Positions 1 to 41,640 of a DNA stretch of 41,640 nt are shown one piece after another. Numbering within the stretch: position 1 is the first letter of the stretch; every line of letters starts with the position of its first letter. The notes beneath the pieces were generated by a model that was not told the DNA's origin, searched no databases, and saw nothing but the letters and a program-made list of their open reading frames with translations. The stretch is from a virus. The DNA is taken from positions 1 to 41,640 of IMG/VR virus record IMGVR_UViG_3300049791_000049. One strand, written 5' to 3'. The translations under genes and the position numbers were made by a program.

Positions 1-34
1 ATGCACACCGCCGGGGCCACCTTCTGTCCAGGGA
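1..34 (-). other. short gap after capsid gene, continues across the window ends
   Basis: Non-coding bases between the capsid stop and, across the window ends, the start of the next minus-strand gene at 41629. Read on the minus strand it holds an AGAAGG element (about 18-26), which is too far from the ATG at 41629 to be its ribosome site if the ends join directly. Either a few bases are missing at the junction or that gene is translated from a weak site. Confidence 0.5.
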
Positions 35-1486: not shown

Positions 1487-1670
1487 TACGGTGTCCTTCG
1501 GTAGCAAGCGAATAGGGGCTTGCTCCGCGCGCGGGCGCACACCTCGGGTCATCTGCCGGGGATGGGGCGTCAGCACGTCACCGTTCGTCTTCTGCTTGGG
1601 TGACGACGCCACCGGTAGGGCCTCTGCCCGCGGTGGTCTCGCGTGAGCTGGTCGAGCGGTGGTGCCGTTC
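1487..1670 (-). promoter_or_regulatory. capsid leader with 5'-UTR hairpin
   Basis: 184-bp gap between protease stop and capsid start. A 6-bp stem (AGCAAG at 1503-1508 with CTTGCT at 519-524 of the same kb, i.e. 1519-1524) with a 10-nt loop sits just upstream of the capsid AAGGA site. Such a stem could protect or expose the ribosome site of a highly expressed gene. I see no convincing -35/-10 pair in the gap. Confidence 0.35.
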
Positions 1671-2609
1671 TCACGCCTCGAGAAGTGCCTCGATGTGCGA
1701 GAGGGTCCGGCCGGTCGCCCGCGTCTGGGACGGCTGAGCCGAAAGGGTCTGCGTGGCCGGCGCTTCGTCGGCCACGCTGATGTCCGGGGGGGCGACGGCG
1801 AGGTAGGCGGCCAGGGCCTCCTGGCCCTCGCCGACGATGCTGTCGATCGCCGACAGCATCGAGCGCACCTGCGACACCACATCGGTGTCGACGGCCGTCA
1901 GCGCGCGGGCCGGGGTCAGGTCCTTGCGGTGCTGCAGCAGCCCGAGGGCGGCGCGGGCCGCACCGGTCGGCATCCGCTGCAGGTCCCGCATCACCTGCTG
2001 GGAGCGGGCCGCGATCGACGTGAACGGGTTCGCGCCATAGTTCACGGCCGACACGTCACCGCGGTTCAGGTTCACCCGCTCGATCGTGAACTCGGTGAAG
2101 TCGTCGTTCCACGATGCCTCGTCGATCATGAAGGCGAACGACATCTCGGTGACGTTCTTGTCGTCGATCGCCAAAGCCAGATTGCGGGCCTCATCCCGCT
2201 GCGGGTTCAGCCACGCCATGCTCCGCAGACCCAGCGCGTCCGCCGACAACTCCAGCGTGCCGCTCGTGGTTCGCGCAAGCGTCAGACCAGTGTGGTTCAC
2301 CAAGAACGCCACGTCCGGCTGCGCCGCCAGCGTCGCATCGAAGGCGCCGGCGGAAACCTTCTCCGAGTAGGGGCCGAAGAAGTCCCACATCTCGTAGGAA
2401 CGCTCCACGATCGAGGCGTAGCCCACCAGCTCGTGGAACTGCTTGCCGTCGCGCTCCACCAACTGCGCGCGCATCTCGGCCGGAGAGTCGACCAGTCGCG
2501 CCCGCTCGCCGTCGTTGGGGGCGAGCCGGCGCGCCTCCGGCTTGCCGGCCGCCGCCGCCGCACGTTGGACCGCCGCCTCGCGGGCGGTGGTGCTCGGGCT
2601 ATCGGTCAT
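1671..2609 (-). CDS. HK97-family prohead protease (peptidase S78)
   Basis: 312 aa. Serine protease that matures the prohead by cutting the capsid delta domain. The protease core is residues about 45-200: the His motif AFLVNHTG (about residue 105-112) and the Ser motif EMSFAF (about 155-160) match the S78 His/Ser pair, followed by the family-typical stretch ending DVSAVNYGANP. The C-terminal third is Ala- and Gln-rich and possibly a scaffold-like tail. The start ATG overlaps the portal stop by 4 bp (ATGA), so translation is coupled. Between portal and capsid, as in most HK97-like phages. Confidence 0.92.
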   Translation of the reverse strand: MTDSPSTTAREAAVQRAAAAAGKPEARRLAPNDGERARLVDSPAEMRAQLVERDGKQFHELVGYASIVERSYEMWDFFGPYSEKVSAGAFDATLAAQPDVAFLVNHTGLTLARTTSGTLELSADALGLRSMAWLNPQRDEARNLALAIDDKNVTEMSFAFMIDEASWNDDFTEFTIERVNLNRGDVSAVNYGANPFTSIAARSQQVMRDLQRMPTGAARAALGLLQHRKDLTPARALTAVDTDVVSQVRSMLSAIDSIVGEGQEALAAYLAVAPPDISVADEAPATQTLSAQPSQTRATGRTLSHIEALLEA

Positions 2610-3790
2610 GGTGTGGCTCCATCCGTCGCGGGGGCAGCGCTCGCCGCGGCCTCGGGCTTCTTGGCGAACAGCCGATCGAACCCGGCCATCTGGTCCTCGG
2701 TCAGCGGCGGCCGGTCGTAGAACTCGCGGCCCTCATCCGGGGTCAGCGTCCGCGAGTCGATCTGCGTCTTCATCACCAGCGCCTGCGTCTGCGGGTCCAT
2801 CCGCAGCAGCGCGCCCGTGTTCAGCTTCACGAACCGCGGTTGCGGCAGCAGGGTGCTCAGCGCCAGTTCGCGCCGGACGATCGCCGGGCCGAGATGCATG
2901 ATCAGGAACTGCAGGTTCCGCTGGGTGACGTTGGCGTAGGTGATGTTCCCCGACTGGACGGCGGCGTCGATCAGGTCGCCAGGACAATCGAAGAACCGGG
3001 CCACGTCGCCGATTCCGTACTTCTGCGCCTCCAGCCAGTCCGCGCCCACCGACTCGGCCTGGATCGGCGTGTACTCCCAGTCCTTGCCGGTGGTGAACAC
3101 GTCCCGGCCCTCGACGGAGGCCTTGAACCGGGCCTTCATCTCCTGCGCGACCTTGACGTCGACGGTCTCCTCGGTGTTGCGAAGCATCGCCTTCGGGATA
3201 CCGCCCGATCCGTACCAGTCCACCGCGAACTGCTGCGCGGACTGGTACTGGCCGATCGACCACGCCGCATACGCCACCGGCGAGAGGCCAACTGGCAGAC
3301 CCGAGATCGTGTACTGCTTCTCGTGCCACACCTGCTCCTCCGGGTACTCCACACCCTGGATCCGGTATGTCAGCACGCCGTCCCTCTCGCGCAGCGAACA
3401 CGCCGAGAGGGTCTGCAGCTCGATCCGCGACGGCAGCTTGGCCGCGTTCCGCTCCGTGATCAGGCCGAAGCTGTTACCCGAACGGTCCAGGTCGACCTGC
3501 GAGGAGTACATCCACTCGGCCATGCCGACCCGTGTACCGCCCGGGGAGATAAGCACCGGAGGCTTCGGCATCTCCACCTGGATCCCGCCCACCCGGCGGA
3601 ACACATCCACCGGCAGCGTCGAGACCAGGTTCGCTCGCAGGCGCAGGCACGCCCACACCGCCGAATGCCGCATCGCCGTATCCGGCGACACATGCACCGA
3701 CCCCGTCCCCGACGGCGACCCACGCAACGGCAGCAGATCCTGCGCACCCGAAATACCGAAGAACCGGGCCTGCCGCCCGAAGAGACTCAC
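2606..3790 (-). CDS. phage portal protein (HK97 type)
   Basis: 394 aa. Dodecameric ring at one head vertex through which DNA enters and leaves, and docking site for terminase and connector. Sequence signs are the N-terminal SLFGRQARFF, then HSAVWACLRLRANLVSTLP (about residues 38-57), a classic portal opening, and the FFDCPGDLID and NITYANVTQRN motifs around residues 275-300. The C-terminus is disordered (Ala/Pro). Start is the GTG at 3790, which overlaps the stop of the upstream membrane-protein gene (GTGA). A longer open frame reaching 4012 is the wrong frame for the upstream gene and has no coding character. Confidence 0.93.
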   Translation of the reverse strand: MSLFGRQARFFGISGAQDLLPLRGSPSGTGSVHVSPDTAMRHSAVWACLRLRANLVSTLPVDVFRRVGGIQVEMPKPPVLISPGGTRVGMAEWMYSSQVDLDRSGNSFGLITERNAAKLPSRIELQTLSACSLRERDGVLTYRIQGVEYPEEQVWHEKQYTISGLPVGLSPVAYAAWSIGQYQSAQQFAVDWYGSGGIPKAMLRNTEETVDVKVAQEMKARFKASVEGRDVFTTGKDWEYTPIQAESVGADWLEAQKYGIGDVARFFDCPGDLIDAAVQSGNITYANVTQRNLQFLIMHLGPAIVRRELALSTLLPQPRFVKLNTGALLRMDPQTQALVMKTQIDSRTLTPDEGREFYDRPPLTEDQMAGFDRLFAKKPEAAASAAPATDGATP

Positions 3791-3978
3791 TGGCCCCCCG
3801 GCTTCGACACGCGAGGCGGCCGGGCCTGCCAGTCCGCGAACGCCGAGCCGGCCAGCACCACGACACCCGCAACGGCCAGCGCCGCCCAGCCGATGGACCG
3901 GTACGCCAGTGCGCCCACACCAGCCGCGAGCAGCAGCAGCCCCAGCACGTCCAAGAGGTTCGTGACCAGGTCGCGCAC
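3787..3978 (-). CDS. small two-TM membrane protein between terminase and portal
   Basis: 63 aa with two hydrophobic segments (about residues 4-22 and 29-48) and a basic, Pro-rich C-terminus. Start chosen as the GTG at 3978 because GGAGG lies 8 bases upstream; a TTG at 3999 in the same frame is possible. The stop overlaps the portal start (GTGA). Small membrane proteins at this place are common in actinophages, but the function is unknown to me. Confidence 0.65.
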   Translation of the reverse strand: MRDLVTNLLDVLGLLLLAAGVGALAYRSIGWAALAVAGVVVLAGSAFADWQARPPRVSKPGGQ

Positions 3979-3995
3979 GGGCCGCACCTCCGATC

Positions 3996-5564
3996 TCAAT
4001 GGAAGGAATCAAGGAGGTTGTACGACTTCTTCGCCACCGTCAGACCCCACCGGGCCTGAGTGATCACCACGACCGGGGCCACATCCACACCCGCACCGGC
4101 CGACTTCCTGCGGCCGAACGCCCAGTTCCCGTCACCCAGGTCCCGGCGCACCGCACCCTCGATCGCCGCATCGACTAAGGCCGAGCCGCGGTGCCACACG
4201 GTGCGCTGCGCCAGTGCATCCTGCATCCCGGCACACGAGGCGCCGACCTCGGCCGCCGTCATCTGCACCGGATCAAATCCTGCCTTCTGCAGCGGGTCGA
4301 TCAGCATGCCCGCCGGCGACGTCGGGTCGATGATGATCGCCGGGTGCAGCTTGCGAGTGTCCGGCTTCCCCGGCTTCGGCTCCGACCCACGCCGGATCTT
4401 GTGCAGCCGGTGCTTGCCGGCCAGCTCGAGGATCCGGGCCAGCGCGCCATCCACACCCGGCAGATAATCGATCAGGCCAACATGCGCGTTACCGTCCGGC
4501 CGCCACCCGGCCACACCGATCGCCGTCGACCGGCGCGACAACGGGATCTCCACCGAGATCACGATCGGCGCATCGTCAGCGATCGCCGATTCCGGGTCGA
4601 CCTGCTTCTGCCAGTCGGCCACACTCACCGGCGGTGTCCCGGCAGCGTCCGCAGCCTCATGCCAGCCGTACCGCTCCCGGGCGAACCCCCGCGGCGTCAG
4701 CGTGCGCCGCTCATTGCGCAGGAAGTGGTACCCGATCCGGCGCCCAGCCGCATGATTGCCGAGGTGCCACAGCTCCTCACGATCCAGCACGCACCCAGTC
4801 ACCCCGAAGGCATGCGTGCAACCGGGCGACTCACACCCCGGCTCCTCCCAGCTACCCGGCGCGCAGTACTCGATGTAGATCAGCGACGGGTCCGACATCG
4901 ACCGGCCCCGCTTGACCAGCTTCGCCAGATGCTCGGAATCCTCCTTCCCAGCCGACGACGCGTACCGCACCTGCGGGTTCGGCCGAGCCGACAGCGTCGG
5001 CAGCCGGGCATCCATCACCTTCGCCGGCAGGATCAACGCCTCATCACCGACCCACGTCTTCCCGCCCTCACCACGACCACCGCCCGGCGTGCGCGCCGCG
5101 AACTCGAAAACCGAGCCGTTGACATGCTCGATCGCCTCCTCGGAGGAGGAGTCGTTGATGTCGGCGACCCGCGCCGACAACACCCGGTTCGCCTCGATCA
5201 GCCGCTTCACCGTGTCGAACGCCCCACGGCACGTCTTCATCAGATGCGCAGTCCACGTGATCTTGTCCGCGCCGAACACGTCCGTGAGGATGAAGAACTC
5301 GAACATCGTGATCGGCAGCAGCGTCCGGTCCGTCTTCCCGTTCTGCCGGCCCTCGATGATCGCGACCTCAAGCGCGTGCCACAGGCCGCCCGGCCCGAAA
5401 CTCGCCAACGCGTCGATCGCCGCAGCCTGCTCCGGATCCGGCGCGTGACCGATGCCCGTCGACCAGTCCACGATCTCCGGGCCGTACGTACCCCGCCGCC
5501 CCGGCGGCACCCACAAGTACGCCGGCTCGACGAACGGCGGCGGATAGTCCAGCAGGGCGCTCAC
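3996..5564 (-). CDS. large terminase subunit
   Basis: 522 aa. ATPase/nuclease motor that packages DNA into proheads. The N-terminal ATPase part shows a deviant Walker A, EGRQNGKT (about residues 71-78), and a Walker B-like TWVGDEALIL (about residues 167-176). The C-terminal half (IVISVEIPLSRRSTAIGVAG, IIIDPTSPAG) looks like the RNase H-like nuclease with its acidic residues. Length is typical of actinophage TerL. The GTG start overlaps the small-terminase stop (GTGA). The stop TGA is at 3996-3998. Confidence 0.94.
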   Translation of the reverse strand: MSALLDYPPPFVEPAYLWVPPGRRGTYGPEIVDWSTGIGHAPDPEQAAAIDALASFGPGGLWHALEVAIIEGRQNGKTDRTLLPITMFEFFILTDVFGADKITWTAHLMKTCRGAFDTVKRLIEANRVLSARVADINDSSSEEAIEHVNGSVFEFAARTPGGGRGEGGKTWVGDEALILPAKVMDARLPTLSARPNPQVRYASSAGKEDSEHLAKLVKRGRSMSDPSLIYIEYCAPGSWEEPGCESPGCTHAFGVTGCVLDREELWHLGNHAAGRRIGYHFLRNERRTLTPRGFARERYGWHEAADAAGTPPVSVADWQKQVDPESAIADDAPIVISVEIPLSRRSTAIGVAGWRPDGNAHVGLIDYLPGVDGALARILELAGKHRLHKIRRGSEPKPGKPDTRKLHPAIIIDPTSPAGMLIDPLQKAGFDPVQMTAAEVGASCAGMQDALAQRTVWHRGSALVDAAIEGAVRRDLGDGNWAFGRRKSAGAGVDVAPVVVITQARWGLTVAKKSYNLLDSFH

Positions 5565-31158: not shown

Positions 31159-32555
31159 CAGGCGCCGGTCCCGACGGCCAGGTAGCGGGGCCAGTACGAG
31201 CCGTTGATGGTCACCGTGGAGGAGACGATGTCAGTTGAAAGAGGCGACGGCTGGACATCGTTGATGTAGTAGAGCCGGTTGGTGACGCCGGGGCTGACGG
31301 TCGGCCACCCGAGCCCGACGTAGTCAACGGAGTCGATGTCCGCGATCCGGCCGGACCCGTCGATTCCGTACACCGTCTTGCTGGTCCCGTCGATGACGAA
31401 AGTCGTTGGGGCGGTGTCACCCCACTTGATGATGAACATCGCGTCATCGGCCGGGACGAACAGCAGGTAGTCCCAGATGAGAGGGTTCGCGCCGGTCAGC
31501 CGGTCCGCGTGCACCACGACGGAAACACCGACCACGGACAGGTTCGCTCCACCCGGACCGTCCGTTACCGGGTCCACACCTTCCGGGATCTGCACCAGCC
31601 CCAGGTCCACCATGGTGTAGATATTCGTCGGCAGCGTATACGTTTTCAGCGTGTTGTTGATCTGCCGTGCACCGTGTGTGATCCGCATCCGGAAGTTCGC
31701 GACGGAAAGACATCTCACTCTGGCGAACACCCGGTAAGTGCCCCGGGCATCCACGGACGGCGACGCAGGCACGGTCGCGGTCAGCCGGGGCACCACGAAA
31801 GTGTTGGTCGCGAAAGTGGTCGCCGACGAATTGGACGCCGCCCCGGACGGCGACGCCCCGCCGCCGGCCGAATCGGTCGCCACGGTCACCGTCGTATCGG
31901 TGCCCTGAGTCATGCTCTCCGCCTGGACCAGGAACGGTGCCGCCGACGGGGTTCCGCGCCGGCGCATCGCGAACAAGCTCTGACGGCTGACGACGGAGCT
32001 AGGGATCGTCAACCGCAGCGGTGTCTCGACGTCGCCCTTCACTCCGGTGATGTCGAAGAACCGGCCGTTCGCGGCGTTCGGATCGTTGGACACCACGGCT
32101 GCCGACAGGTCGGTTTTCAGGCCGTAAGCGAATGGTTGCGCCGGGATCTGCACCGTGAACTCGTGCAGGTTGATGCCGTGGTCGATGCTGTCCGACGTGT
32201 CCGGACTCCGGTAGGTGAGGAAGTACACGGCCGGGACGGTCGGCTCTGGCTGCCACCTGATGACGTTCGTCGGCCGGTCAAGTTCCTTACGCAGGACCTG
32301 GATCTGCGTCTGGGCCGTGACCGGGTCGGTGGCGTCCACCTGCAGGCGCAGCGTAACCACCCGGTTGTCGTAGGCAGACGCCGCGATCGGCGTACCGTCC
32401 GTCAGCATCGTCGGCGCAACCACACGCTTCAGCGGCGGCGGCGACACATCGGTGCCAGCGAACAGAACCCGCCACGGGGCAGTGGTCAGCGACAGCCGGA
32501 TCGTGGCCGTGGCCGAGACGGAGTCCACGAACTCAACCCGCTCGAAACCGGTCAC
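31158..32555 (-). CDS. distal tail protein (Dit-like), enlarged
   Basis: 465 aa. First gene after the tape measure, the usual place of Dit, the ring joining tail tube and tip. N-terminal residues 40-165 fit the belt domain (ASAYDNRVVTLRLQVDATDP, REL-DRPTNVIRW, DHGINLHEFTVQIPAQPFAY). Residues about 200-380 add a beta-rich block (VTVATDSAGGGASPSG, FRMRITHGARQINN) that ordinary Dit proteins (about 250 aa) lack and that resembles a carbohydrate-binding module. GTG start 32555 overlaps the tape-measure stop. Confidence 0.8.
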   Translation of the reverse strand: MTGFERVEFVDSVSATATIRLSLTTAPWRVLFAGTDVSPPPLKRVVAPTMLTDGTPIAASAYDNRVVTLRLQVDATDPVTAQTQIQVLRKELDRPTNVIRWQPEPTVPAVYFLTYRSPDTSDSIDHGINLHEFTVQIPAQPFAYGLKTDLSAAVVSNDPNAANGRFFDITGVKGDVETPLRLTIPSSVVSRQSLFAMRRRGTPSAAPFLVQAESMTQGTDTTVTVATDSAGGGASPSGAASNSSATTFATNTFVVPRLTATVPASPSVDARGTYRVFARVRCLSVANFRMRITHGARQINNTLKTYTLPTNIYTMVDLGLVQIPEGVDPVTDGPGGANLSVVGVSVVVHADRLTGANPLIWDYLLFVPADDAMFIIKWGDTAPTTFVIDGTSKTVYGIDGSGRIADIDSVDYVGLGWPTVSPGVTNRLYYINDVQPSPLSTDIVSSTVTINGSYWPRYLAVGTGA

Positions 32556-35272
32556 GACGTCCTCCCGTACAAGTCGGCTTGCCGGCCGATGATCTGCCCG
32601 ACCGCACGGCCGTCCATCTTCACGGCGATCCCCGCCTGGGCGAACGCCCGCACGTTGGCCTTGGCCATCCGGTCGTAGTCGATGTCAGCGCCGGCGGAAG
32701 CCGTGCTCGCGGCCGGGCGGCGGTCGAGGACCCGGGTGAGCCGGTCGAATGAGCGGGTCTGCGCCGGGCTGAGCACCCGCTCGGGGCTGAGCGTGTTCTT
32801 GGCCATGAACCCCTGCCCGGTGGCGATACCGCCCTGGTCGTACCAGTGGTGGGCGCGCCAGAAGTTCGCCGCGTTGGTGGCGTTTCCGTACCGCTCGTGC
32901 ACGTACATGCGGAACATTTTCAGCTGGGCGGCGTAGTTGGTGGTGTTCGGGCTGACGCCGAGGATCCGCCCGTAGTGGGCGCGGTTGGCGTAGATGAGCT
33001 GGCCGAGCCCGAACGCCGTGCTGGTTGGGTTCTGGGCGTTGGTGCGGCCGCCGGACTCGTGCATGATGATGTACTTTTCCGGCCCGGACAGGCCGCCCCC
33101 GCCGCCGCCGAAACCGAACAGCCCGGCGAACTTCCCACCCAGCCCAGAAAGAGCGTTCAAGGCCTTGTCGGGCAGGTTCTTGATGTCAACCAGCGACTTG
33201 TTCACCAGGGCGCCGAGCGCTTGGGGCATCCCACCGAAGATCTTCGTTACGGCCGCCACCGGGTTGTGATCGATCATGCTGCCGAACAGGGACCGGATCA
33301 GGTTGCTGCCGATCCCGGCGAACACCTTGCTCGGGCTCTTGATCCCGAAGAAGTTCTTCACCGCTCGCACGATCCGGCCACCGATGTTCGCCGCCCAGCT
33401 CCCCGCCGCCTGAACGCCGTTGAACATGCCGTCGCGCAGGCCCCGCAGCACCTCCCGGCCGGACTGATACAGCCACGACCCGGCCCGGCGGAACGGTGAC
33501 GTGATTCGGTTGATCACCTGACCGGCCGCCTGGCCCACTGTCATCAGCCGGCCGACCGTTCCCCGGACCAGCCCGCCGACGACGTCCCGCCCGGCGTTGA
33601 TCAGCCAGCGATCGGCGGCCCGGAACGGCCACGTCACGGCCCGGACGACGCGGCCTATGACCAGGACGACCCTGCCGATTCCGCGACCCGCTCCAGTGGC
33701 GAGACCCCAGACGAAGTCACGAGCTGCCAGAGCCACTATCCGGCCCTGGAAACGAACACCCTCGATCAGTCCTCCGAGCCGCAGACCAAGCATCTTCTCC
33801 ATGCCCGGAATCACTTCCCTGATACCGGTGAGCATCCCCCGTCCGAGGAACTTGACGAAGTTCCAAGCCGCATCGAAAACCGGTACAGCGGAACGATCTA
33901 GCGCAGCACCGACCCACTTACCGAACGGGAGCTTCTCCAGCAGGAACCGCAGCGGCTTGAACGCGGCGAACAGCTTGCCCAGGGGGATGAACGAGACGAT
34001 GGCCAGCGCGACATCGAAGGGGTGTTCCTTGATCGCTTTGAACAGGCCGTCCACCAGGGTCAGGCTGAACCCGATCGCGAACGGGGCCGCGGTCAGCCCT
34101 ACCTTCTTCCCCAGCTCCAGCCAGTCGATCGACCCGAACAGGTTGCCGATCGCTTTGCCGATGCTCTTCCCTGCGCCCGCGGCCCCGTTCAGCGCCTTAC
34201 CCAGGCCATCGCCCAATATGCGCCCGAGTTCGCCCCAGTTGCCCGTCTGCATGCCCACCTGGACGCCGAGGAGGATTAAGCCGCCCCAGTCCTTCGCCTG
34301 GTCCTCGATGTCCGCCGCCCACCCGGTCAGGTCCAGCTTCGGCAGGTGGTCACCGATCCCGTCGAACGCCGTCGTCAGCGTCGGCACCAGCTTCTTCGTC
34401 ACGAAGTCCCGGGACGTCTTGAACGCCCCGGTCATCGTGTCGAGGATCCCCGGCAACTTCTCCAACGCCTTACCCGCCACCACCGATGCACCGGCAAGCC
34501 CGGTCTTCAGGGCCGGGATCATCGGAGTGATCGCCTTCGCCAAACCCAGCGACAGGGTGTCCGTGAACGTCGACCATAGGCCGTTCAGGGTGGCGGACTG
34601 CTTGGCCATCGCGCCGCCGTAGTCCTTGTGCATCTGCGACTGGAGCGCGGGCAGGACATCCTTCGAGAGGAGCTTGCCGTGCGAGGCCAGGTCCCGCAGT
34701 TCCGGGACCGTCTTGTGCATCGACTCGGAGAGGATTTTCCAGATCGGGATGCCGTTGGTGGCGATCTGGTTCAGGTCTCCTGCCATGAACTTCCCGGCGC
34801 TGATCGCCTGGGAAGTTGCGAGCATGATCCGCTGGAAAGCTTCCTGACCGACACCAACGGCGGACGCGGCATCGCCGAAGTCCTGCAACGCCTTCTGGGT
34901 CTGCTTCGTGCTCAGGCCTACACCGATCAGAGTCCGCGATGATTCGATCAGCCCAGACAGCTCGAACGGCGTGCTCGCCGCGAACGCGGTCAAACCCTTC
35001 AAGAACGTTTGCGCCTTCTGACCTGAGTGCAGCAGGGTCGCGAACCCGATCTGCGCCTGCTCCAGTGACGCAGCCGTCTTGACGCCGAGCACCGCCCCCG
35101 CCGCACCCAGCCCAGCCATAGCGGTACCCACGCCCACCAACGCCGTGCCTGCGAACTTCCCGAACTTCCCGATCTTGGAGCCGAGGGAGTCGGTGGACCG
35201 TTCGACGTCGCGGGCCGTCTTGGTGAACTTGTCGTTGGCCAGGAACGTGAACTTGAGTACGTTCTCACTCAT
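32552..35272 (-). CDS. tape measure protein with C-terminal lysozyme-like domain
   Basis: 906 aa, the longest gene. Sets tail length and later crosses the cell wall. N-terminus VLKFTFLANDKFTKTARDVE is typical of TP901-type tape measures. It has long helical and hydrophobic stretches (about residues 390-620), with repeated WLxxAGRDVVGGLVRGxxxR-type units. Residues about 725-808 form an SLT/goose-lysozyme-like domain: EKYIIMHESGGRTNAQNPTS with the catalytic-like Glu, AFGLGQLIYANRAHYGRIL. By the 0.15 nm per residue rule, the tail would be about 130 nm long. Confidence 0.93.
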   Translation of the reverse strand: MSENVLKFTFLANDKFTKTARDVERSTDSLGSKIGKFGKFAGTALVGVGTAMAGLGAAGAVLGVKTAASLEQAQIGFATLLHSGQKAQTFLKGLTAFAASTPFELSGLIESSRTLIGVGLSTKQTQKALQDFGDAASAVGVGQEAFQRIMLATSQAISAGKFMAGDLNQIATNGIPIWKILSESMHKTVPELRDLASHGKLLSKDVLPALQSQMHKDYGGAMAKQSATLNGLWSTFTDTLSLGLAKAITPMIPALKTGLAGASVVAGKALEKLPGILDTMTGAFKTSRDFVTKKLVPTLTTAFDGIGDHLPKLDLTGWAADIEDQAKDWGGLILLGVQVGMQTGNWGELGRILGDGLGKALNGAAGAGKSIGKAIGNLFGSIDWLELGKKVGLTAAPFAIGFSLTLVDGLFKAIKEHPFDVALAIVSFIPLGKLFAAFKPLRFLLEKLPFGKWVGAALDRSAVPVFDAAWNFVKFLGRGMLTGIREVIPGMEKMLGLRLGGLIEGVRFQGRIVALAARDFVWGLATGAGRGIGRVVLVIGRVVRAVTWPFRAADRWLINAGRDVVGGLVRGTVGRLMTVGQAAGQVINRITSPFRRAGSWLYQSGREVLRGLRDGMFNGVQAAGSWAANIGGRIVRAVKNFFGIKSPSKVFAGIGSNLIRSLFGSMIDHNPVAAVTKIFGGMPQALGALVNKSLVDIKNLPDKALNALSGLGGKFAGLFGFGGGGGGLSGPEKYIIMHESGGRTNAQNPTSTAFGLGQLIYANRAHYGRILGVSPNTTNYAAQLKMFRMYVHERYGNATNAANFWRAHHWYDQGGIATGQGFMAKNTLSPERVLSPAQTRSFDRLTRVLDRRPAASTASAGADIDYDRMAKANVRAFAQAGIAVKMDGRAVGQIIGRQADLYGRTS

Positions 35273-35732
35273 CGTGTTTCACCTTCCTGGTCGAGAATGA
35301 CTTTCATGTACAGGTAGAGCCGGTGCTCTAGTCGATCGAATTCCCAGGGCCGAAGTCCCCAGCGGGTAAGGAATCTGACGACGTCGGCGTCGTATCGCTC
35401 GGCGAGGGAACCGGGGCCGCAGTCGAAACTGAAAGGAAGGCGCTCGCCTCGACCAGCTCCGCCTCCGTAGGGTCTTTTCCCGAATCCTCGTCCTCCTCCA
35501 TGTCCAGGGTGTCCGGGTTGAATTCAACGTCGTCGAACCGCAAGGCCGGGTCCTCATCACGGCGACGCAGAATCCAGATGAGCCCGGTGATCGCGAGCAT
35601 GGAGCTCTTGTTCAGGCCGTCCCGCCATTCGATAGCGGTCATCCCGAGCTCGCGTTCGATGGCGATGAAATCCTTGTTCGAGAAACCGTTCTGCTCGAAC
35701 TCGTAGGTACTGCCATCGACATGGACTCTCAC
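35269..35732 (-). CDS. tail assembly chaperones gpG and gpGT, joined by -1 frameshift
   Basis: The zero-frame protein (gpG-like, 35732 to 35328, 134 aa; GTG start) opens MRVHVDGSTYEFEQNGFSNK and has DFIAIERELGMTAIEWRDGL and WILRRRDEDPALRF, the usual actinophage chaperone pattern. At the heptamer GGGAAAA (35475-35481) a -1 shift moves reading into a second frame that continues RPYGGGAGRGERLP, FSFDCGPGSLAERYDADVVR, FLTRWGLRPWEFDRLEHRLY and ends at 35269, overlapping the tape-measure ATG. The fusion is 154 aa. This second frame has no start codon of its own. Both products guide tail tube assembly around the tape measure. Confidence 0.88.
35475..35481 (-). other. slippery heptamer for -1 frameshift
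   Basis: Minus-strand G-GGA-AAA in the frame of the gpG-like gene, in the X-XXY-YYZ form used by lambda and other siphoviruses for gpG/gpGT. After the shift the frame stays open to the tape-measure start codon, with good third-position GC. Confidence 0.88.
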
Positions 35733-35744
35733 GGGCCTTGCCTC

Positions 35745-36233
35745 TCAGTAGTTTTCGATGCGCTTCTGAATGGTGTCCACGACCCGCTTCAGTTCCCGGC
35801 CCACGCTGCCCGCAGCCGAAGCGGCGGCTCCGTCGAACCAGCCTCGCCGGGACAGCTGCCTGACCCAGTGCTCGCGGTTGCCGTACACCGGGTGCCGCCA
35901 CAGCCCCTCGTTGGTGACCTTAGGGAGGGACGCTTGCGACCCCATCCGGGCGCGGGAGATCCGCACTTTCACCCCGGCCTGGTTGCCACCGGTGCGCACC
36001 TGGACGTTGGTGACCCGGGCCATCTTCTTCCGCAGGCCCGTCGACTTGCCGCCCGGCTTGGCGGGCAGGGCGAGCGCCGCAGCCTTCACCTTCACCGCTG
36101 CCGGCTGGGCCCCTGCCTTCAGCCCGGCGGTCAGGTCCTTACGGATCTGCTTGGGAGTGGCCGTCGAGCGGATCCGCTTGCTGATCGCCTTCAGATCAGC
36201 CGGACCATTGCCGGTCATCTTCATTTCCATCAT
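35745..36233 (-). CDS. HK97 gp10-like tail completion protein
   Basis: 162 aa. Helical, basic N-terminal half (LKAISKRIRSTATPKQIRKD) and the signature ASLPKVTNEGLWRHPVYGNR then EHWVRQLSRRGWFDG, which is shared by HK97 gp10-type proteins of actinophages. Such proteins sit at the head-tail junction or tail end. Here it lies between the tail tube and chaperones instead of before the tube. ATG 36233 chosen because GGAGG is 10 bases upstream; ATG 36242 is nearly touching it. Confidence 0.75.
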   Translation of the reverse strand: MMEMKMTGNGPADLKAISKRIRSTATPKQIRKDLTAGLKAGAQPAAVKVKAAALALPAKPGGKSTGLRKKMARVTNVQVRTGGNQAGVKVRISRARMGSQASLPKVTNEGLWRHPVYGNREHWVRQLSRRGWFDGAAASAAGSVGRELKRVVDTIQKRIENY

Positions 36234-36274
36234 TCGGCTCATACCTCCGCATTCGGGCGCGCATAATCGGGCGC

Positions 36275-36499
36275 ATGGAGATACCTGGTGGCCTGGTCCT
36301 GCTCGCGATCGTGTGGGGCATCCAATTGCTGCGGATGCGTGCCAAGAAGAACCGAGAGACCGCGGCCCTCTCGGAAGCGAATGCCCTGCTCAACGAGTCA
36401 CGGAACCGAGACGTGAACCGCCGGCAAGAACTACTCGACCGTCTTGGTGTCGACCTCCGGCTCGTCGAGAGCCGGTCGAAGCTCGATCGGGATCAGTAG
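36275..36499 (+). CDS. rightward single-TM coiled-coil protein inside the tail operon
   Basis: 74 aa. TM at about residues 5-20 (GGLVLLAIVWGIQLLRM), then a long charged helix (KKNRETAALSEANALLNESR, RRQELLDRLGVDLRLVESRS). It is the only plus-strand gene in the late region. It fills a 190-bp gap between two minus genes and overlaps the 3' end of the gene at 36431 by 69 bp. CATAAT (36262-36267) stands 7 bases before the ATG, with no ribosome site, so it may be a leaderless transcript. Good third-position GC. A moron-like gene expressed apart from late genes is likely. Confidence 0.55.
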   Translation: MEIPGGLVLLAIVWGIQLLRMRAKKNRETAALSEANALLNESRNRDVNRRQELLDRLGVDLRLVESRSKLDRDQ

Positions 36500-36823
36500 C
36501 GCTGACGGCGACGGCCGGGACTGCATAGCGTTCGTCACCTGGTCGAGCGTGGTGCACCGGTGGCAGCGCAGCTCCAGCATCGGCTTGTACCGGAACTCGT
36601 TCTCAGCCAGCGTCGTCTCGGCCAGCGGCTGATGGCATCCCGGGCACAGTTCGGACTCGTACTGCGCCAGGTCCATGGCCGCCTGCCGGTCCGCTTCCAA
36701 CCACTGCGGGATACCCAGGGCCGGGTCGACGACGCGGCCGAGGAACACCGACATTGGCACACCCCACGCCCGGGCCACCAGCAGCTGCTGCCGGACGCGG
36801 GGGTCCTCGACGTCGTACTGCAC
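36431..36823 (-). CDS. zinc-ribbon tail-region protein
   Basis: 130 aa. QQLLVARAWGVPMSVFLGRV in the N-terminal third, then LCPGCHQPL and LRCHRCTTL, a two-pair zinc ribbon around residues 59-91. Such proteins occur in many actinophage tail regions just upstream of or within the chaperone block; the role is unknown. GTG start 36823, directly after the endonuclease stop. Confidence 0.7.
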   Translation of the reverse strand: MQYDVEDPRVRQQLLVARAWGVPMSVFLGRVVDPALGIPQWLEADRQAAMDLAQYESELCPGCHQPLAETTLAENEFRYKPMLELRCHRCTTLDQVTNAMQSRPSPSALLIPIELRPALDEPEVDTKTVE

Positions 36824-37450
36824 TCAGACCCGCACCGGGACTGCAGCGATACGAGCCACCTCGATGTAATCCGCCGCAGCACGCAGACGGGCCGGATCAT
36901 CCCGCATCATCCCGACCGCCAGATTGCAGGCCGCACAGATCAGGCCCCGGACGCACGAGCCGCACGACCGGTCGCCGTCACAACACGCGTGGTCATGGTC
37001 GACACTGAGCGCCTTGCCGTTGGAATTCACGCCACCACAGATCGCGCAGACACCATCCTGGCTTTCCAGGATCGCCATGAACCGATCCAGAGTGAGATTA
37101 AACCGGCCGAGGTTATAACCGTATTGAAGATGCTTACAACACCGGAGCTTGGCAACCGATGCTTCCTCGCATCCCGCAATGCCGCACGGCGCGTCAAGGT
37201 TGTACACCTTAATCGGGCGCACCTCCCCATATTTCTTCATGTGTTTCCGATGCGTCAGGCACAGCCCACGGGCGCTATGTTTCCGCCCGCAACCAACCAC
37301 TGAGCACGCCGTCATGCCCTTCGTCTTCACGTACACCCTGAGCGGCGTCAGGTCCTTACCCAGCGACCACTGCTTGTAGTGACTCGGGCAGTAGCCCAGG
37401 TCACCGCCGCGCCGCGTACAGGCAGGGCCCGTGCATGTACGATCCGCCAT
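36824..37450 (-). CDS. endonuclease VII-type HNH (probable homing) endonuclease with zinc repeats
   Basis: 208 aa. C-terminal residues 115-190 show the Endonuclease VII signature: AICGGVNSNGKALSVDHDHA, CCDGDRSCGSCVRGLICAAC and NLAVGMMRDDPARL. In front are three Cys/His units: CTGPACTRRGGDLGYCPSHY, CSVVGCGRKHSARGLCLTHR and CGIAGCEEASVAKLRCCKHL, each C-x4-C...C-x2-H. ATG 37450 (MADRTCTG). The DNA here is visibly richer in A/T than its neighbours, and it interrupts the tail genes, which suggests recent insertion. Confidence 0.85.
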   Translation of the reverse strand: MADRTCTGPACTRRGGDLGYCPSHYKQWSLGKDLTPLRVYVKTKGMTACSVVGCGRKHSARGLCLTHRKHMKKYGEVRPIKVYNLDAPCGIAGCEEASVAKLRCCKHLQYGYNLGRFNLTLDRFMAILESQDGVCAICGGVNSNGKALSVDHDHACCDGDRSCGSCVRGLICAACNLAVGMMRDDPARLRAAADYIEVARIAAVPVRV

Positions 37451-37485
37451 AGCCAGTGCACCTCTTCCGTAGGTGTAATCGGTCA

Positions 37486-37519
37486 GGCCCCGGGACGCGC
37501 GCAATCGCATTCCGGGGCC
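37486..37519 (-). terminator. hairpin after the major tail gene
   Basis: GGCCCCGG (37486-37493) pairs with CCGGGGCC (37512-37519), loop 18 nt, in the 88-bp gap between the tail-tube gene and the endonuclease. It may reduce read-through into the endonuclease and the tape-measure genes, giving more tail tube protein. No T-run. Confidence 0.5.
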
Positions 37520-37538
37520 GTTTAATTCTATCGAGGAA

Positions 37539-38018
37539 TCACGCCACCGTCGCCCGAAGATTGGGCTGATTGGTGACCATGGTCTTTATCTCAAACTTAT
37601 GGACCTCGTTAGCAGCCGGGGGAAGGTTGCTGACTTCTCCGCATTGAACGGGGTACACCTCGACCTTGTCGGAGGTGGCCCATGCGGTACTCGAAGTGAC
37701 ATCCCGACGAATAACAATGTTCGTCGAGAAGCCATAGACGAGAGTGTTGTAGACCGTGTCAGTTCCGGTCTGCTTGATGAGCCGCAGCAGGGTTCCGGAG
37801 AGCGAGACACGCCCAGCGCTGGACGTGTTGAACGTCGAGTTCAGCTTCGAGTTGTCCACGGCGCCGGTGTCGGTCTCGAACCCGACCAGCCCATCCGGGG
37901 TGATCAGACCCGATAGGTCCACCCCCGCGTTCAGTTCGGCCACGGTCGGCGCGGCGATGTTCGAGATGGACGGGACCGAGTACACCCGGGTCCTGCCGTC
38001 AGCATTGCTATCGGCCAT
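37539..38018 (-). CDS. major tail tube protein
   Basis: 159 aa. Forms the stacked rings of the tail tube. Beta-rich with GDLSGLITPDGLVGFE-like elements (VDLSGLITPDGLVGFETDTG), STFNTSSAGRVSLSGTLLRL and VIRRDVTSSTAWATSDKVEV, typical of siphovirus tube proteins. ATG 38018 has GAAGGAG upstream, the best ribosome site in the region, fitting an abundant protein. A hairpin follows the gene. Confidence 0.86.
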   Translation of the reverse strand: MADSNADGRTRVYSVPSISNIAAPTVAELNAGVDLSGLITPDGLVGFETDTGAVDNSKLNSTFNTSSAGRVSLSGTLLRLIKQTGTDTVYNTLVYGFSTNIVIRRDVTSSTAWATSDKVEVYPVQCGEVSNLPPAANEVHKFEIKTMVTNQPNLRATVA

Positions 38019-38024
38019 CGGTGA

Positions 38025-38402
38025 TCACTCCTTCGTTTCATCGGTGGCCGGCGGCGTGCTGGCCTTCGTGGTGGACTTGCTCGGTGCCGATTCAGGTGCG
38101 GACTTCGGTGCTGGCTTCGGCGGTTTCGGGATCTGCCACCCGGCTTCGATCGCGCCCTCCAGCGCCTCCGCGTTAGAGGGGAAGGTGTGCCGGGCGCCGG
38201 TCACCTTGTGGGTCAGATCGACCCACCCGTCATCCGCCGGTGCGTCGCCGGGGACCGGGGTGAACGGCTTCGGTGCGGGCCGGTCGGCGACCACCCAGCC
38301 GAGACCCTTCTGCCGCTCGACGACACCCGGCTCGTCCGGCACTTCCTGCGTCGCGTCATCAATCCCCGGGTGAGTCATGTAGACGAACTCGGCGGCGCTC
38401 AC
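38025..38402 (-). CDS. hypothetical structural-region protein, Lys/Pro-rich tail
   Basis: 125 aa. VERQKGLGWVVADRPAPKPF and GWVDLTHKVTGARHTFPSNA, ALEGAIEAGWQIPKPPKPAP are recognisable stretches, the remainder a disordered Lys/Pro/Ser end. Often found just upstream of the tube gene in actinophages; role unknown. GTG 38402 overlaps the preceding stop (GTGA); ATG 38414 would overlap it by 16 bp. Confidence 0.7.
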   Translation of the reverse strand: MSAAEFVYMTHPGIDDATQEVPDEPGVVERQKGLGWVVADRPAPKPFTPVPGDAPADDGWVDLTHKVTGARHTFPSNAEALEGAIEAGWQIPKPPKPAPKSAPESAPSKSTTKASTPPATDETKE

Positions 38403-38722
38403 CGGCTGAACCATTCAGCGGTGACGGTGGTGAGGTTGGACCAGGTGACCGTGATCAGGCCCGTGGTCGGCGCGACCCGCGCGGGGTTCACGGCGATGAG
38501 GTACTTGGTGTTCGCCGCGATGGTGACCACGACACCGACCCCCGCCGACCCGGCGGGGGTGACGCTGCCGTCCTGCAAGGTCACCGTGGCGGCGGTCGCC
38601 CCGTTCTCGACGTGCAGAATCAGGTCATCCGTCGCCAGGATGGTGTCGGTCGTGGATGCCGGAACTCCCAGCGCGGGCACGACGCCTGCTTCCGTGATGA
38701 TCCTCAGTGGTCCGGTTGCCAT
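38399..38722 (-). CDS. hypothetical beta-rich structural protein
   Basis: 107 aa. LILHVENGATAATVTLQDGS, GVGVVVTIAANTKYLIAVNP and LITVTWSNLTTVTAEWFSR suggest a beta sandwich. It may be a head decoration or neck protein; family not recognised. ATG 38722 lies two bases after the upstream stop. Confidence 0.7.
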   Translation of the reverse strand: MATGPLRIITEAGVVPALGVPASTTDTILATDDLILHVENGATAATVTLQDGSVTPAGSAGVGVVVTIAANTKYLIAVNPARVAPTTGLITVTWSNLTTVTAEWFSR

Positions 38723-38724
38723 GG

Positions 38725-39039
38725 TTACTCCCCTGCCGCGAGGTAGATGTGGAGTGCCGCCGAGTTCGACGGCAGGGGACTTGTGTCCCAGACGCTCAAG
38801 TTGATCCGCACGTACCTGACCAGATGGCCATCCGTTGAGGAGAAGAGGCCCGCCGTGCCGGTCTCCACGAGGGGCTCGAACTCATACCCTGCGACTGACC
38901 CCTCCAGGGTCACATCGAAGACGGGCGAGCCGTCGCCCTGCGGGTGCACCTCGATCGTGAAATGTCGATACAGCGTCCGGAGATCGAACTGCTCAGAGAT
39001 TCCCGCCTCGTTGTTGGCGAAGATTTCGAACGGCGTCAT
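38725..39039 (-). CDS. hypothetical beta-rich structural protein, 104 aa
   Basis: 104 aa. FDLRTLYRHFTIEVHPQGDG, FDVTLEGSVAGYEFEPL, HLVRYVRINLSVWDTSP; a beta sandwich like the neighbouring gene. Probably a neck or head decoration protein. ATG 39039 has AGAAG upstream. Family not recognised. Confidence 0.7.
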   Translation of the reverse strand: MTPFEIFANNEAGISEQFDLRTLYRHFTIEVHPQGDGSPVFDVTLEGSVAGYEFEPLVETGTAGLFSSTDGHLVRYVRINLSVWDTSPLPSNSAALHIYLAAGE

Positions 39040-39054
39040 TTACTTCTAACTCCT

Positions 39055-39507
39055 CTACTCGCTTGCCTGGACGCTGACCTGGAAGACGACGGTCGCGTTG
39101 CGCGTCGACTCGTCCGCCGTCTCGGTCAGCTCGAACTCGGACATCGGTTGCGATGAAAGGACATTGGCGACCCCGAGAGTGCTATCCGCCTGACTCAACA
39201 CCGCCGAGCGGGTCGCGACGTAGAAGCCCATCGCGGCCTCGGTCGCGGTCTGCTGCGAGTCGGCGCCCGGACGGGAGCAGGAAATGACGATCTCGACCGT
39301 GTAGTCCTCGGCCAGCCGGTTGTATGCCAGCGACGCGAACCGCGGTGTGCCCACCACAGTCCCGACCGTCACGACGTCCAGGCCGACCACCGTCTTCGTG
39401 GAACGCGGCCCGTAGATCACCTGCGCGGTCGACAACGCTGTGGTGAGCAGAGCGACCAGGGCGGCCTTGTACGCCGGGACCGTGCTCGTCGCCGGGATCG
39501 TGCTCAT
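39055..39507 (-). CDS. tail completion / terminator-like protein
   Basis: 150 aa. VPAYKAALVALLTTALSTAQ, RFASLAYNRLAEDYTVEIVI, then ATEAAMGFYVATRSAVLSQA and NATVVFQVSVQASE. The alpha-beta-alpha layout and its place after the connector gene fit the tail terminator group that caps the tube. ATG 39507 overlaps the connector stop (ATGA). Confidence 0.72.
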   Translation of the reverse strand: MSTIPATSTVPAYKAALVALLTTALSTAQVIYGPRSTKTVVGLDVVTVGTVVGTPRFASLAYNRLAEDYTVEIVISCSRPGADSQQTATEAAMGFYVATRSAVLSQADSTLGVANVLSSQPMSEFELTETADESTRNATVVFQVSVQASE

Positions 39508-40337
39508 GCGAACCCCGGTGCCCGCAGCGCCTGGTAGGCGCCCATCTCCAACGGTGTCAGCGTCCCCGCGGCCGCGAACACCGCCTGCTCAGCGGACACG
39601 TCATCGAGGTACGGGTGCGACGCCTGCTGGGAGGACTGCCACATCCGCTGAATCCCATTGAGGGCGACTTTCCGGGCGATCCTCGGTGGGCTCAGGTAGC
39701 CGGCCACGATGGTGACAACGACGTTCTGCCGGCCCGACAGCCAGCACCTGGGGGACTGCTGGCCGCCCCGGTACAGCAGACCCGCGGCCAGGTCCGCCGT
39801 GTAATCAGCGGCGGCCAGCGTGATTCCCGACTCGACCACACTCGTCAGCGAGATGACCGGGGTGTTGTGCAGGACCAGGGCGGTCACGCCGCCGTTGAAC
39901 GTCTCGACCACAGCGCGGCGGGCGATGACCCTTCCGAGGTCCCGTTCGACGGCGTCGCAGGACACCTGGCATAGCCACCGCAGTTGCTCAAGGTCAGGGG
40001 CCGTCACGATCACCCCGGTAGCCCGCAGGTGAGCGAGCGCCTCGTCGGTGTCCACGAACGCCGACGCCGGTTCCTCGACGGTGAAGTTCCGGCGGATCAC
40101 GACCGTGACGCCGGCGACGATGGCTGTCCATACCTCTTGGTGCAGCCCGAACACGGTGTTCGGGTACACCACGTAGTACTCGCCCGTCACCCCGTGCTGC
40201 ACGCCCGGCGCGATGCCCCCGGTCCCGTCCGGCAGGGTCACCGCATAGGCGGGCGTCGAGTCGGCGTCGGCGGCGACACCGGCCGCGTTCGTCAGGTTGA
40301 CCGACCGGGTGGTCGACTCGAGCAGGTCGATCGGCAT
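39504..40337 (-). CDS. head-tail connector protein (gp6-like)
   Basis: 277 aa. N-terminal residues 1-85 are a beta-rich extra part. Residues about 95-230 match gp6-type connectors: FVDTDEALAHLRATGVIVTA, LRWLCQVSCDAVERDLGRVI, VVETFNGGVTALVLHNTPVI and LTSVVESGITLAAADYTADL. It docks on the portal ring. Length is larger than simple connectors because of the N-terminal part. ATG 40337 overlaps the preceding stop (TGATG). Confidence 0.82.
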   Translation of the reverse strand: MPIDLLESTTRSVNLTNAAGVAADADSTPAYAVTLPDGTGGIAPGVQHGVTGEYYVVYPNTVFGLHQEVWTAIVAGVTVVIRRNFTVEEPASAFVDTDEALAHLRATGVIVTAPDLEQLRWLCQVSCDAVERDLGRVIARRAVVETFNGGVTALVLHNTPVISLTSVVESGITLAAADYTADLAAGLLYRGGQQSPRCWLSGRQNVVVTIVAGYLSPPRIARKVALNGIQRMWQSSQQASHPYLDDVSAEQAVFAAAGTLTPLEMGAYQALRAPGFA

Positions 40338-41629
40338 CAGGCACCACCTTCGATCGTCGGCCCGGACCTGGTGCCCGGGGAGGCGGCCGCGCTGCCGTGC
40401 GTGCCTGGTGCGGCGCCGGCCGAGCTGCGGGTGCCGGGAGCCATGCGTGGGGCTTTCGGGGTCACGGTCGGGGCGGTGCTGGTCGGGGTCGGGAGGAACC
40501 GTCGGATGCCGCGGCGGATCAGGACCGGCAGGGTGCGCCGGCGGACCGGCCGGACTGGGTAAGCGGGCGGGACAATGAGCTGCACGGGCGGAGGCGAGAC
40601 GACCAGCTGTCGGCGCAGCTTCCGCCCGACCCGCCGGCCACCGACCACCGACGGTGCTTTCGCCGGGGCAGCGACGATGACCTGCTGCGGGGCCGGCGCG
40701 GTGAGCTTGGCCCGACGCCCGGGGAGGGCAGCGCGCCGTGAGCGGGCCGAGGCCGGCTTCCAGGTGGACGCCGTTACCGCCGCCTGTGTGGGGACGGGTG
40801 TACTGGTTCTCGGCCTGCGTGCGACCGCTGGTGCCCGCCTCAGCACCCGGACCGGCGGGGGTGACCAGTCGGGTGCATCCCACAGTGCGGGGGACGCAGG
40901 GACGCTCAGGGGCCGCCTGGGCGGGCTGACGATGATGCGGTGCCTGACGAACTGCGCGGGCATGTCCGGGTACTCGATCCCGATCGGCAAGCTGCTGCCG
41001 GCGGTGATGTGGAACCCATCCCAGTCGAAGTCCGTGATGGCCGACGCGCCGGAGTTACCGGCCCGGGCACGGTCGATGAGCCCGGTCGTCACCACCGAAC
41101 TGGCGGTGATCGAATCGATCGGCGTCAGCGAGTCGCTGACGTATGCCTGGACCGCCCACACGCCGGACGACCCGTTGATGCCTGAGTGCTGGCTCTCATA
41201 ACGGGTGTACGTGCCGGTGCTGATAGGCACGGTGCCGGTGGCCAACGTGGTCCCGCCCGAGTTGTAGAGGGTCAGCAGGCCGGCCGCGGTGAGTCTCCAT
41301 CCGCCCTGCTGCGCGTCAGCGATCGTCCGCAGCTGGACACCCATCGAGGCGCCAAGGACCGAGGGCAGGCCGGTGAGGTTGTAGTAGATCCGGGTCGCGA
41401 AATCGGTGGATCCCGAACCGTCGCGCAACTCGTAGACGCTGGCCGCGGTGCCACCTTTGGTGACCCGATAGCCGTTCGCGCCGTGCATCGCCGCAGCCGA
41501 GTTGAAGGCAGACGAATTGGACGCCCCGTTGCTGACGACTGAGAGCGCGGTGCCGGATCCGCCGCCTGAGTTTCCAGCGTTCAGCGCGGTCCCGGACGGT
41601 TGCCCCTCCGCATTGTTGCGTGACGTCAT
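40337..41629 (-). CDS. lectin-like (LamG-type) head or neck protein with basic Pro/Arg-rich tail
   Basis: 430 aa. Residues 1-220 show a jelly-roll lectin pattern: NNAEGQPSGTALNAGNSGGG, ATRIYYNLTGLPSVLGASMG, GWRLTAAGLLTLYNSGGTTL, SVVTTGLIDRARAGNSGASA, DFDWDGFHI. Residues 235-430 are low-complexity and strongly basic, rich in Arg, Pro, Val and Ala (PPRRPLSVPASPALWDAPDW, VRVLRRAPAVARRPRTS, PVRPVRRRTLPVLIRRGI). Lies between the capsid gene (across the window ends) and the connector. A head fibre or adhesion protein is likely; ATG 41629 has no clear ribosome site. Confidence 0.7.
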   Translation of the reverse strand: MTSRNNAEGQPSGTALNAGNSGGGSGTALSVVSNGASNSSAFNSAAAMHGANGYRVTKGGTAASVYELRDGSGSTDFATRIYYNLTGLPSVLGASMGVQLRTIADAQQGGWRLTAAGLLTLYNSGGTTLATGTVPISTGTYTRYESQHSGINGSSGVWAVQAYVSDSLTPIDSITASSVVTTGLIDRARAGNSGASAITDFDWDGFHITAGSSLPIGIEYPDMPAQFVRHRIIVSPPRRPLSVPASPALWDAPDWSPPPVRVLRRAPAVARRPRTSTPVPTQAAVTASTWKPASARSRRAALPGRRAKLTAPAPQQVIVAAPAKAPSVVGGRRVGRKLRRQLVVSPPPVQLIVPPAYPVRPVRRRTLPVLIRRGIRRFLPTPTSTAPTVTPKAPRMAPGTRSSAGAAPGTHGSAAASPGTRSGPTIEGGA

Positions 41630-41640
41630 CAGCCGTTATG

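Follow-up and report, generated by a model that had tools for sequence, protein, structure and literature searches.

The window analysed here is the whole of an IMG/VR virus record, 41640 bases long. Its minus strand carries a head-tail operon, with the terminase, portal, protease, and major capsid genes within positions 35–5564, and the adaptor, a weak terminator-like gene, the tail tube, and the tape measure within 32552–40337. The open reading frame (ORF) of interest occupies 40337–41629 on the minus strand and encodes 430 residues. The major capsid gene (35–1486, minus strand; phrog_2263, E 1e-46) is located at the opposite end of the record. Directly after the ORF comes the head-tail adaptor gene (39504–40337, minus strand), which matched phrog_442 (E 9.8e-15) in a scan whose query had one extra leading codon, and whose product is 41–74% identical to nine aligned relatives. 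The place in the head module that the preliminary description gave to the ORF is therefore confirmed. An endonuclease VII family gene (PF02945, E 8.7e-21) is found at 36824–37510, between the tail tube and tape-measure genes. In INPHARED, the capsid protein has 57 matching records, every one from a Mycobacterium phage (identity 27–30% among the 40 matches listed), and a 13-sequence capsid alignment retrieved 36 GTDB contigs, 34 of which were assigned by name to Actinomycetota by the authors. Because of these capsid matches, the host of the phage would be an actinobacterium.

The N-terminus of the ORF appears complete because an in-frame TAA (41636–41638) sits two codons ahead of its ATG; the record has 11 nt before this ATG. 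The stop codon overlaps the ATG of the adaptor as TGATG. From the sequence, a three-part anatomy can be established, namely a jelly-roll tip, a tandem-repeat stalk, and a C-terminal PGxR module (C-module). The tip (residues 1–219; 40973–41629, minus strand) is a concanavalin/Cip1-like jelly roll by AlphaFold2 (AF2), profile, and fold matches. The stalk (residues 220–390; 40460–40972, minus strand) comprises five degenerate 34-residue Pro/Arg repeats and is the basic tail of the preliminary description. The C-module (residues 391–430; 40340–40459, minus strand) comprises PKAPRM, three PGxR-type decapeptides, and IEGGA. The earlier delimitation of a Pro/Arg/Val-rich tail of about 195 residues is thus valid for residues 220–390, which are Pro/Arg-rich with a net charge of +29, whereas the last 40 residues form a separate conserved module.

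Codon statistics are weak at residues ~226–300, where the frame scores fall below zero, and in one scored interval of that stretch another frame on the same strand outscores the frame of the ORF. The ORF frame, stalk included, is taken as real because the 34-residue repeat holds its register across the poor-codon stretch, the related locus L075 has a like stalk, and the conserved C-module follows the poor-codon stretch in frame with it. For the whole ORF, Pfam, PHROGs, NCBIfam, PDB sequences, and INPHARED gave no match, and Pfam and PHROGs at E up to 1 gave no head-fibre family. No direct relatives of the whole ORF or of the tip were found by a peptide-pattern scan of IMG/VR or in INPHARED. 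Single-sequence AF2 of the full ORF gave a pLDDT of 35, with the stalk and C-module lacking a usable model.

The position next to the capsid gene, which had also been claimed for the ORF, is not shown by the window. The two genes are at opposite ends of the record, and in a sibling contig (L006/L003) with a capsid 94% identical to that of the window, six genes separate the capsid gene from the ORF homologue. The ends of the record are not simply joined, since the sibling has seven genes between the capsid gene and the adaptor, the last being the ORF homologue (genes called with the authors' own caller). The slot of the sibling holds a homologue of the Gp80-fibre/phrog_240 head protein. Directly after the sibling capsid gene there is a strong hairpin (L006 ~2554–2592; −47 kcal/mol over an 85-nt stretch, z −4.3). 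The window record seems to break off at this hairpin, with an unspecified length missing, because its first base aligns to the hairpin loop (window 1–34). Circular closure of the record is not favoured, as one end lies within the hairpin and the other arm is missing; no exact end repeat of 12–30 bases was found. A 233-aa protein of L002 (2345–3046) and L006 (4898–5599) has a domain that by eye resembles the tip of the next gene, and has no stalk. It ends in DPDQFGTLAWQ in both phages, and is a second tip with a different end.

The tip was modelled by AF2 over residues 1–217 with a pLDDT of 89.2 and a pTM of 0.88, using an alignment of 33 sequences. A tip search of 396 genomes from the phylum of genome G006 gave nine matches at E up to 0.01, of which only L131 was strong (E 2.1e-15), and a search of 12 genomes with capsid relatives gave a single chance-level match (E 0.036). 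Alignment A6 was built with L131 and the weak match L134, and its search led to 37 viral loci. The tip alignment has 33 rows and uses 32 of these 37 loci; L147, L150, L151, L155, and L168 were excluded because they are duplicates or match only in part.

The predicted model has a two-sheet jelly-roll fold across the whole tip domain. Its Foldseek and VIA-align neighbours include PL14 alginate lyase, Teredinibacter X122 domains, glucuronan lyase, Cip1, ERGIC-53, and legume lectins, with lyase and lectin folds ranking highest. VIA comparison gave Z 18.1 with 8q2a (rmsd 2.8, 193 aligned), Z 17.1 with the glucuronan lyase 2zzj, and Z 16.9 with Cip1, 3zyp (rmsd 2.7, 185 aligned). The tip profile also matches 3zyp among PDB sequences (E 1.7e-6). 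Structure prediction, which had been proposed as a check, therefore agrees with the lectin-like N-terminus of the preliminary description, and the tip is predicted to be a concanavalin-like jelly roll. A plain connector had been considered as well. Pfam and PHROGs gave no connector match for the ORF, the connector being the next gene (the adaptor), and the folds nearest to the tip are those of lyases and lectins.

According to PMC3764139, the calcium side-chain ligands of Cip1 are Glu7, Ser37, and Asp206. Tip residues E8, G50, and D204 fall at the places of this calcium grip. Asp206 corresponds to D204, which is Asp in 33/33 rows. E8 (32/33 rows, one gap) lies outside the HMM alignment and is assigned to Glu7 solely by its position. 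Ser37 is not kept, as its column is mostly His (22/33), and the next column is Gly in 33/33 rows. Binding looks likelier than cleavage for the tip. Sugar binding would suit the lectin-like fold, which alone is no proof of it.

An alignment search with the adaptor found ten IMG/VR loci with a related adaptor; in GTDB contigs it gave 30 stretches and no relative. At seven of the ten loci (L070–L076), the gene directly before the adaptor ends in the same C-module, which brings the number to eight with the window. Among the remaining three, the gene is missing from L077, the long protein of L078 has a different end, and that of L079 is shorter and L078-like. The eight C-module proteins range from 229 to 687 aa, and the stop codon overlaps the adaptor start in every one of them. 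The slot proteins of the more distant adaptor relatives L078 (2672–5950) and L079 (135–626) contain Trp/Arg-rich repeats (RREVPQQR), and the last 45 residues of L078 also show a period of 10 (p 0.006).

The consensus of the C-module in the relatives is PKAxRIEPGTRxxAG...EPGTRTGPTIEGG, and the window module aligns with all seven at Z 8.0–14.5. PGxR (or PGxH/K) is spaced by ten residues or a multiple of ten in 8/8 sequences. When the last 45 residues were shuffled, the ten-residue period had p < 0.01 in six of the eight (L073 0.02, L071 0.17). Identity by codon position is 64% at the first, 64% at the second, and 45% at the third, and among fourfold sites whose residues are identical, third-base agreement is 195/440 (44%) vs 34% expected from composition. 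Since third codon positions drift, the conservation established here is mainly at the protein level, with some DNA kinship remaining. A DNA-level joint is not favoured, given the 45% vs 64%. The Shine-Dalgarno-like GAAGGTGG before the adaptor (40344–40351, minus strand) lies within the EGG codons of the module. The final EGG would double as the ribosome-binding site of the adaptor, and needs no further reason for its conservation. Scanning IMG/VR for PGTRxxxxIEGG gave ten stretches, and the C-module looks confined to this clade at that stringency, because two of them are slot genes already known (L084, L086) and the other eight are unrelated. No description of the C-module or the slot was found in the literature searched, which does not prove its absence from print.

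Exchange among the eight proteins was assessed by local alignment against 60 shuffles (20 for the adaptor), with segment borders set by eye. Between the window and the seven relatives, the adaptor scores above Z 100 and the tip from −0.6 to 0.1, while the stalk reaches 4.4 with L075, stays between −1.6 and 0.8 with five others, and is missing in L073. The tips of L070, L072, and L076 are alike (Z 13–71), and that of L075 is weakly like them (3.4–6.2). The tip of L071 is a Laminin_G_3 lectin domain (E 7.7e-13) and is weakly like that of L074 (Z 4.2), and the L073 tip reaches at most Z 3.4 with the other relatives. Related stalks are found in L074 and L076 (17.3), L070 and L072 (5.7), and L071 and L074 (4.7). 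The pattern established by these alignments is that exchange of tip and stalk is common and incomplete; it is not free in every pair, because some relatives have like tips or stalk pieces. In INPHARED, full-length L071 and L075 have no relatives, and full-length L074 has seven records at 25–34% over the tip part only. Just before the stalkless tip protein of L073, positions 3966–5255 encode a GDSL esterase (PF13472, E 2e-13) whose start weakly resembles Mtd_N.

The stalk of the window is composed of Pro (19%), Arg (16%), Ala (13%), and Val (12%) among other residues, over 171 residues in total. Its autocorrelation peaks at 34, 33, and 68. Offset 34 has a Z of 4.3 vs a 95% null of 3.4, the largest value of 200 shuffles being 4.7. 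When written in lines of 34 residues, the five copies show recurring Pro, Arg-Arg, Arg-Arg, and Pro-x-Pro-x-Gln places. The stalk of L075 aligns over window residues ~223–374. A tandem period above the 95% null is present in 7/7 testable stalks, the window being included and having the weakest. The best periods are 34 in the window, 67/35/33 in L070, 18 in L071, 60/20/40 in L072, 20 in L074, 29 in L075, and 56/18/38 in L076. Among the eight proteins, stalks are 0–406 aa long and span net charges of −20 to +64, with +64 in L075, +28 in L072, +6 to +8 in L070, L071, and L074, and −20 in L076. Due to this variation, the Pro/Arg tail is best described, at the level of sequence, as one version of a changing stalk, and its overall basic charge is not a conserved trait. 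By eye, a short basic stretch directly follows the tip in L070, L072, L074, and L076, and is common to L074 and L076, the pair with the most similar stalks. Because four relatives show this stretch, a local basic linker after the tip may matter.

The wider tip family provides further loci. Of its 37 proteins, 28 extend for 100 residues or more past the domain, eight are too short, and one is a duplicate. The best period beats all 60 shuffles in 19 of the 28 (L147 barely passes, and L154 and L155 are near-duplicates) and does not in nine; it lies at 18–22 residues in 15 of the 19. The design of a tip on a repeat stalk, as judged from these sequences, is wider than the present clade. A decapeptide-like C-terminus as a rule of the tip family is unsupported (4/26 at p up to 0.01). 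The upstream gene is a capsid or capsid-protease gene in four of five scanned loci (L144, L145, L164, and L178) and of unknown family in L172. A downstream adaptor was recognised in one of four scanned loci, and not in L144, L164, or L178. The one locus is L145, where the capsid is of a different family (phrog_10) and the tip-stalk gene is immediately followed by a phrog_442 adaptor. The tip segments of L158 and L164 have no relatives in INPHARED.

A tip-family gene also exists in the cultured Microbacterium phage Cassita, in which gp33 lies between the capsid and head-to-tail stopper genes. This gene was found through L159 and not directly with the window, and it has matches in WaterT, Lifes, BarnCat, and LeeroyJenkins. 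It resembles the ORF in its tip-family domain and its place in the capsid-to-stopper interval, and differs in being 263 aa long, with no long stalk and another C-terminus. Alongside it are a head fiber protein that matches phrog_6994 (E 3e-10), a collagen-like fibre, and a beta-helix protein. Three neighbouring fibre-like proteins of Cassita, gp29–gp31 (L181 4520–6902), have by eye an N-terminal tag like PKPV...PEPLVVVG, and one of them is the annotated head fiber protein; this tag could serve all three for docking. A WxGSGY-like motif, also seen by eye, is shared by gp32, at its N-terminus, and gp33, at its C-terminus (L181 6906–8777).

The ORF has a somewhat better than even chance of encoding a modular adhesin borne on the head or neck of an actinobacterial tailed phage. 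In the proposed arrangement, the N-terminal jelly roll would serve as the grip, its most likely target being a surface polysaccharide of the host or of the host's surroundings, and the Pro/Arg repeats would be a stalk setting reach and flexibility, with the overall charge incidental. The C-terminal decapeptide module would be the constant dock on the virion, near the co-translated head-tail adaptor. Related phages would swap tips and stalks while the end module and adaptor stay. This reading is favoured because a single constant C-module carries varied tips and repeat stalks before the adaptor. The head-borne place is favoured because tip-family genes adjoin capsid-type genes, as in four of the five scanned loci and in Cassita, and because of the head-protein homologue in the sibling slot. 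Docking is suggested by the constancy of the module; the module may also travel with the physically linked adaptor gene without any contact to the adaptor. The head-borne adhesion foreseen by the preliminary description hence stands as the likeliest reading, with presence in the virion, docking, sugar binding, and adhesion as properties that the product would be expected to have.

A purely structural role, in which the jelly roll caps or stabilises the shell or collar as a neck or capsid decoration without any ligand, is rather unlikely. It would suit the adjoining adaptor gene, and the only PDB sequence match of the A6 tip profile is the capsid decoration protein 8cjz, at a weak E of 0.071. 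However, dissimilar tips on stalks of such different lengths with one constant end are hard to explain for a cap fitted to a shell, and the slot of L073 also holds the GDSL esterase with its weakly Mtd_N-like start. Less probable still is a virion polysaccharide depolymerase with the jelly roll as a glucuronan/alginate-type lyase, a type to which some of the nearest folds belong (PL14 alginate lyase and glucuronan lyase, with Cip1 beside them); the top BFVD match and Cassita gp33 are both named hydrolase, as annotated. The tip resembles Cip1 and glucuronan lyase (3zyp, 2zzj) in fold and some calcium-grip positions, but in this phage operon it is joined to a repeat stalk, and the plausible cleft residues of Cip1 are mostly replaced. 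In a local alignment of low confidence, His98, Gln104, and Asp116 correspond to G110, A116, and G126, and Arg100 to R112. Moreover, Cip1 itself showed no significant lyase activity (PMC3764139).

Binding of packaged DNA, capsid, or the anionic cell wall by the basic Pro/Arg tail, as first suggested, is very improbable: the charge of the window, L072, and L075 stalks and the short post-tip basic stretches speak for it, whereas the segment is absent, near neutral, or acidic in the other relatives and the conserved part is the module that follows. Equally slim is the chance of a moron product that acts at the cell surface or is secreted, for which a weak tip-family match (L134, E 0.0012, genome G139) located C-terminally in a GH26-type protein (2bv9, E 1.1e-24) can be cited, against the overlap with the adaptor start in all eight phages and an N-terminus that is not signal-like by inspection.

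The three-part order of tip, repeat stalk, and constant C-terminus resembles that of the periscope proteins of bacteria, which according to Whelan et al. 2021 (PMC8201768) have an N-terminal ligand domain, a tandem-repeat stalk of variable length that sets reach, and C-terminal attachment. In contrast, the ORF is a phage gene with no cell-wall anchor, and the likeness does not amount to membership. Periscope repeats are nearly identical and vary in number between near-identical strains, whereas the 34-residue repeats of the window are degenerate; no near-identical strain pairs of the ORF gene were found. In phages 7-7-1 and phiCbK, head-borne appendages can take hold of the host earlier than the tail, and the head fibres of 7-7-1 are reported to bind host flagella (PMC12796354). 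The ORF product would be a similar host-gripping appendage on the head. It differs from these head fibres in lacking a family match, in its constant C-terminal end, and in its exchanged tips; matches to head-fibre or head-protein families do exist for its slot neighbours in L006 and Cassita. The head fibres of phi29 are a further phage case. In tail fibres the constant end is usually N-terminal, as opposed to C-terminal in the slot proposed here.

What is new, as far as the sequences go, is that tips and stalks are exchanged on a constant decapeptide C-terminus. One reading, offered tentatively and at less than even probability, is that actinobacterial phages possess an exchangeable 'periscope' slot through which head-borne tropism for hosts or surfaces evolves apart from tail-fibre tropism. 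The parts of such a slot could, with the same reserve, be a lineage-specific C-terminal dock, a lectin-like tip that recombines, and a tandem-repeat stalk that changes fast. Exchangeable grips may, as the findings suggest, be carried on the heads of phages as well as on their tails. If true, a constant short-repeat C-terminus before the adaptor, a swapped lectin-like tip, and a repeat stalk would together be a signature for head-borne adhesins, a class that is hard to find by homology. An adhesion function of the head that evolves apart from the tail would then become testable, and Cassita gp33 would allow part of this.
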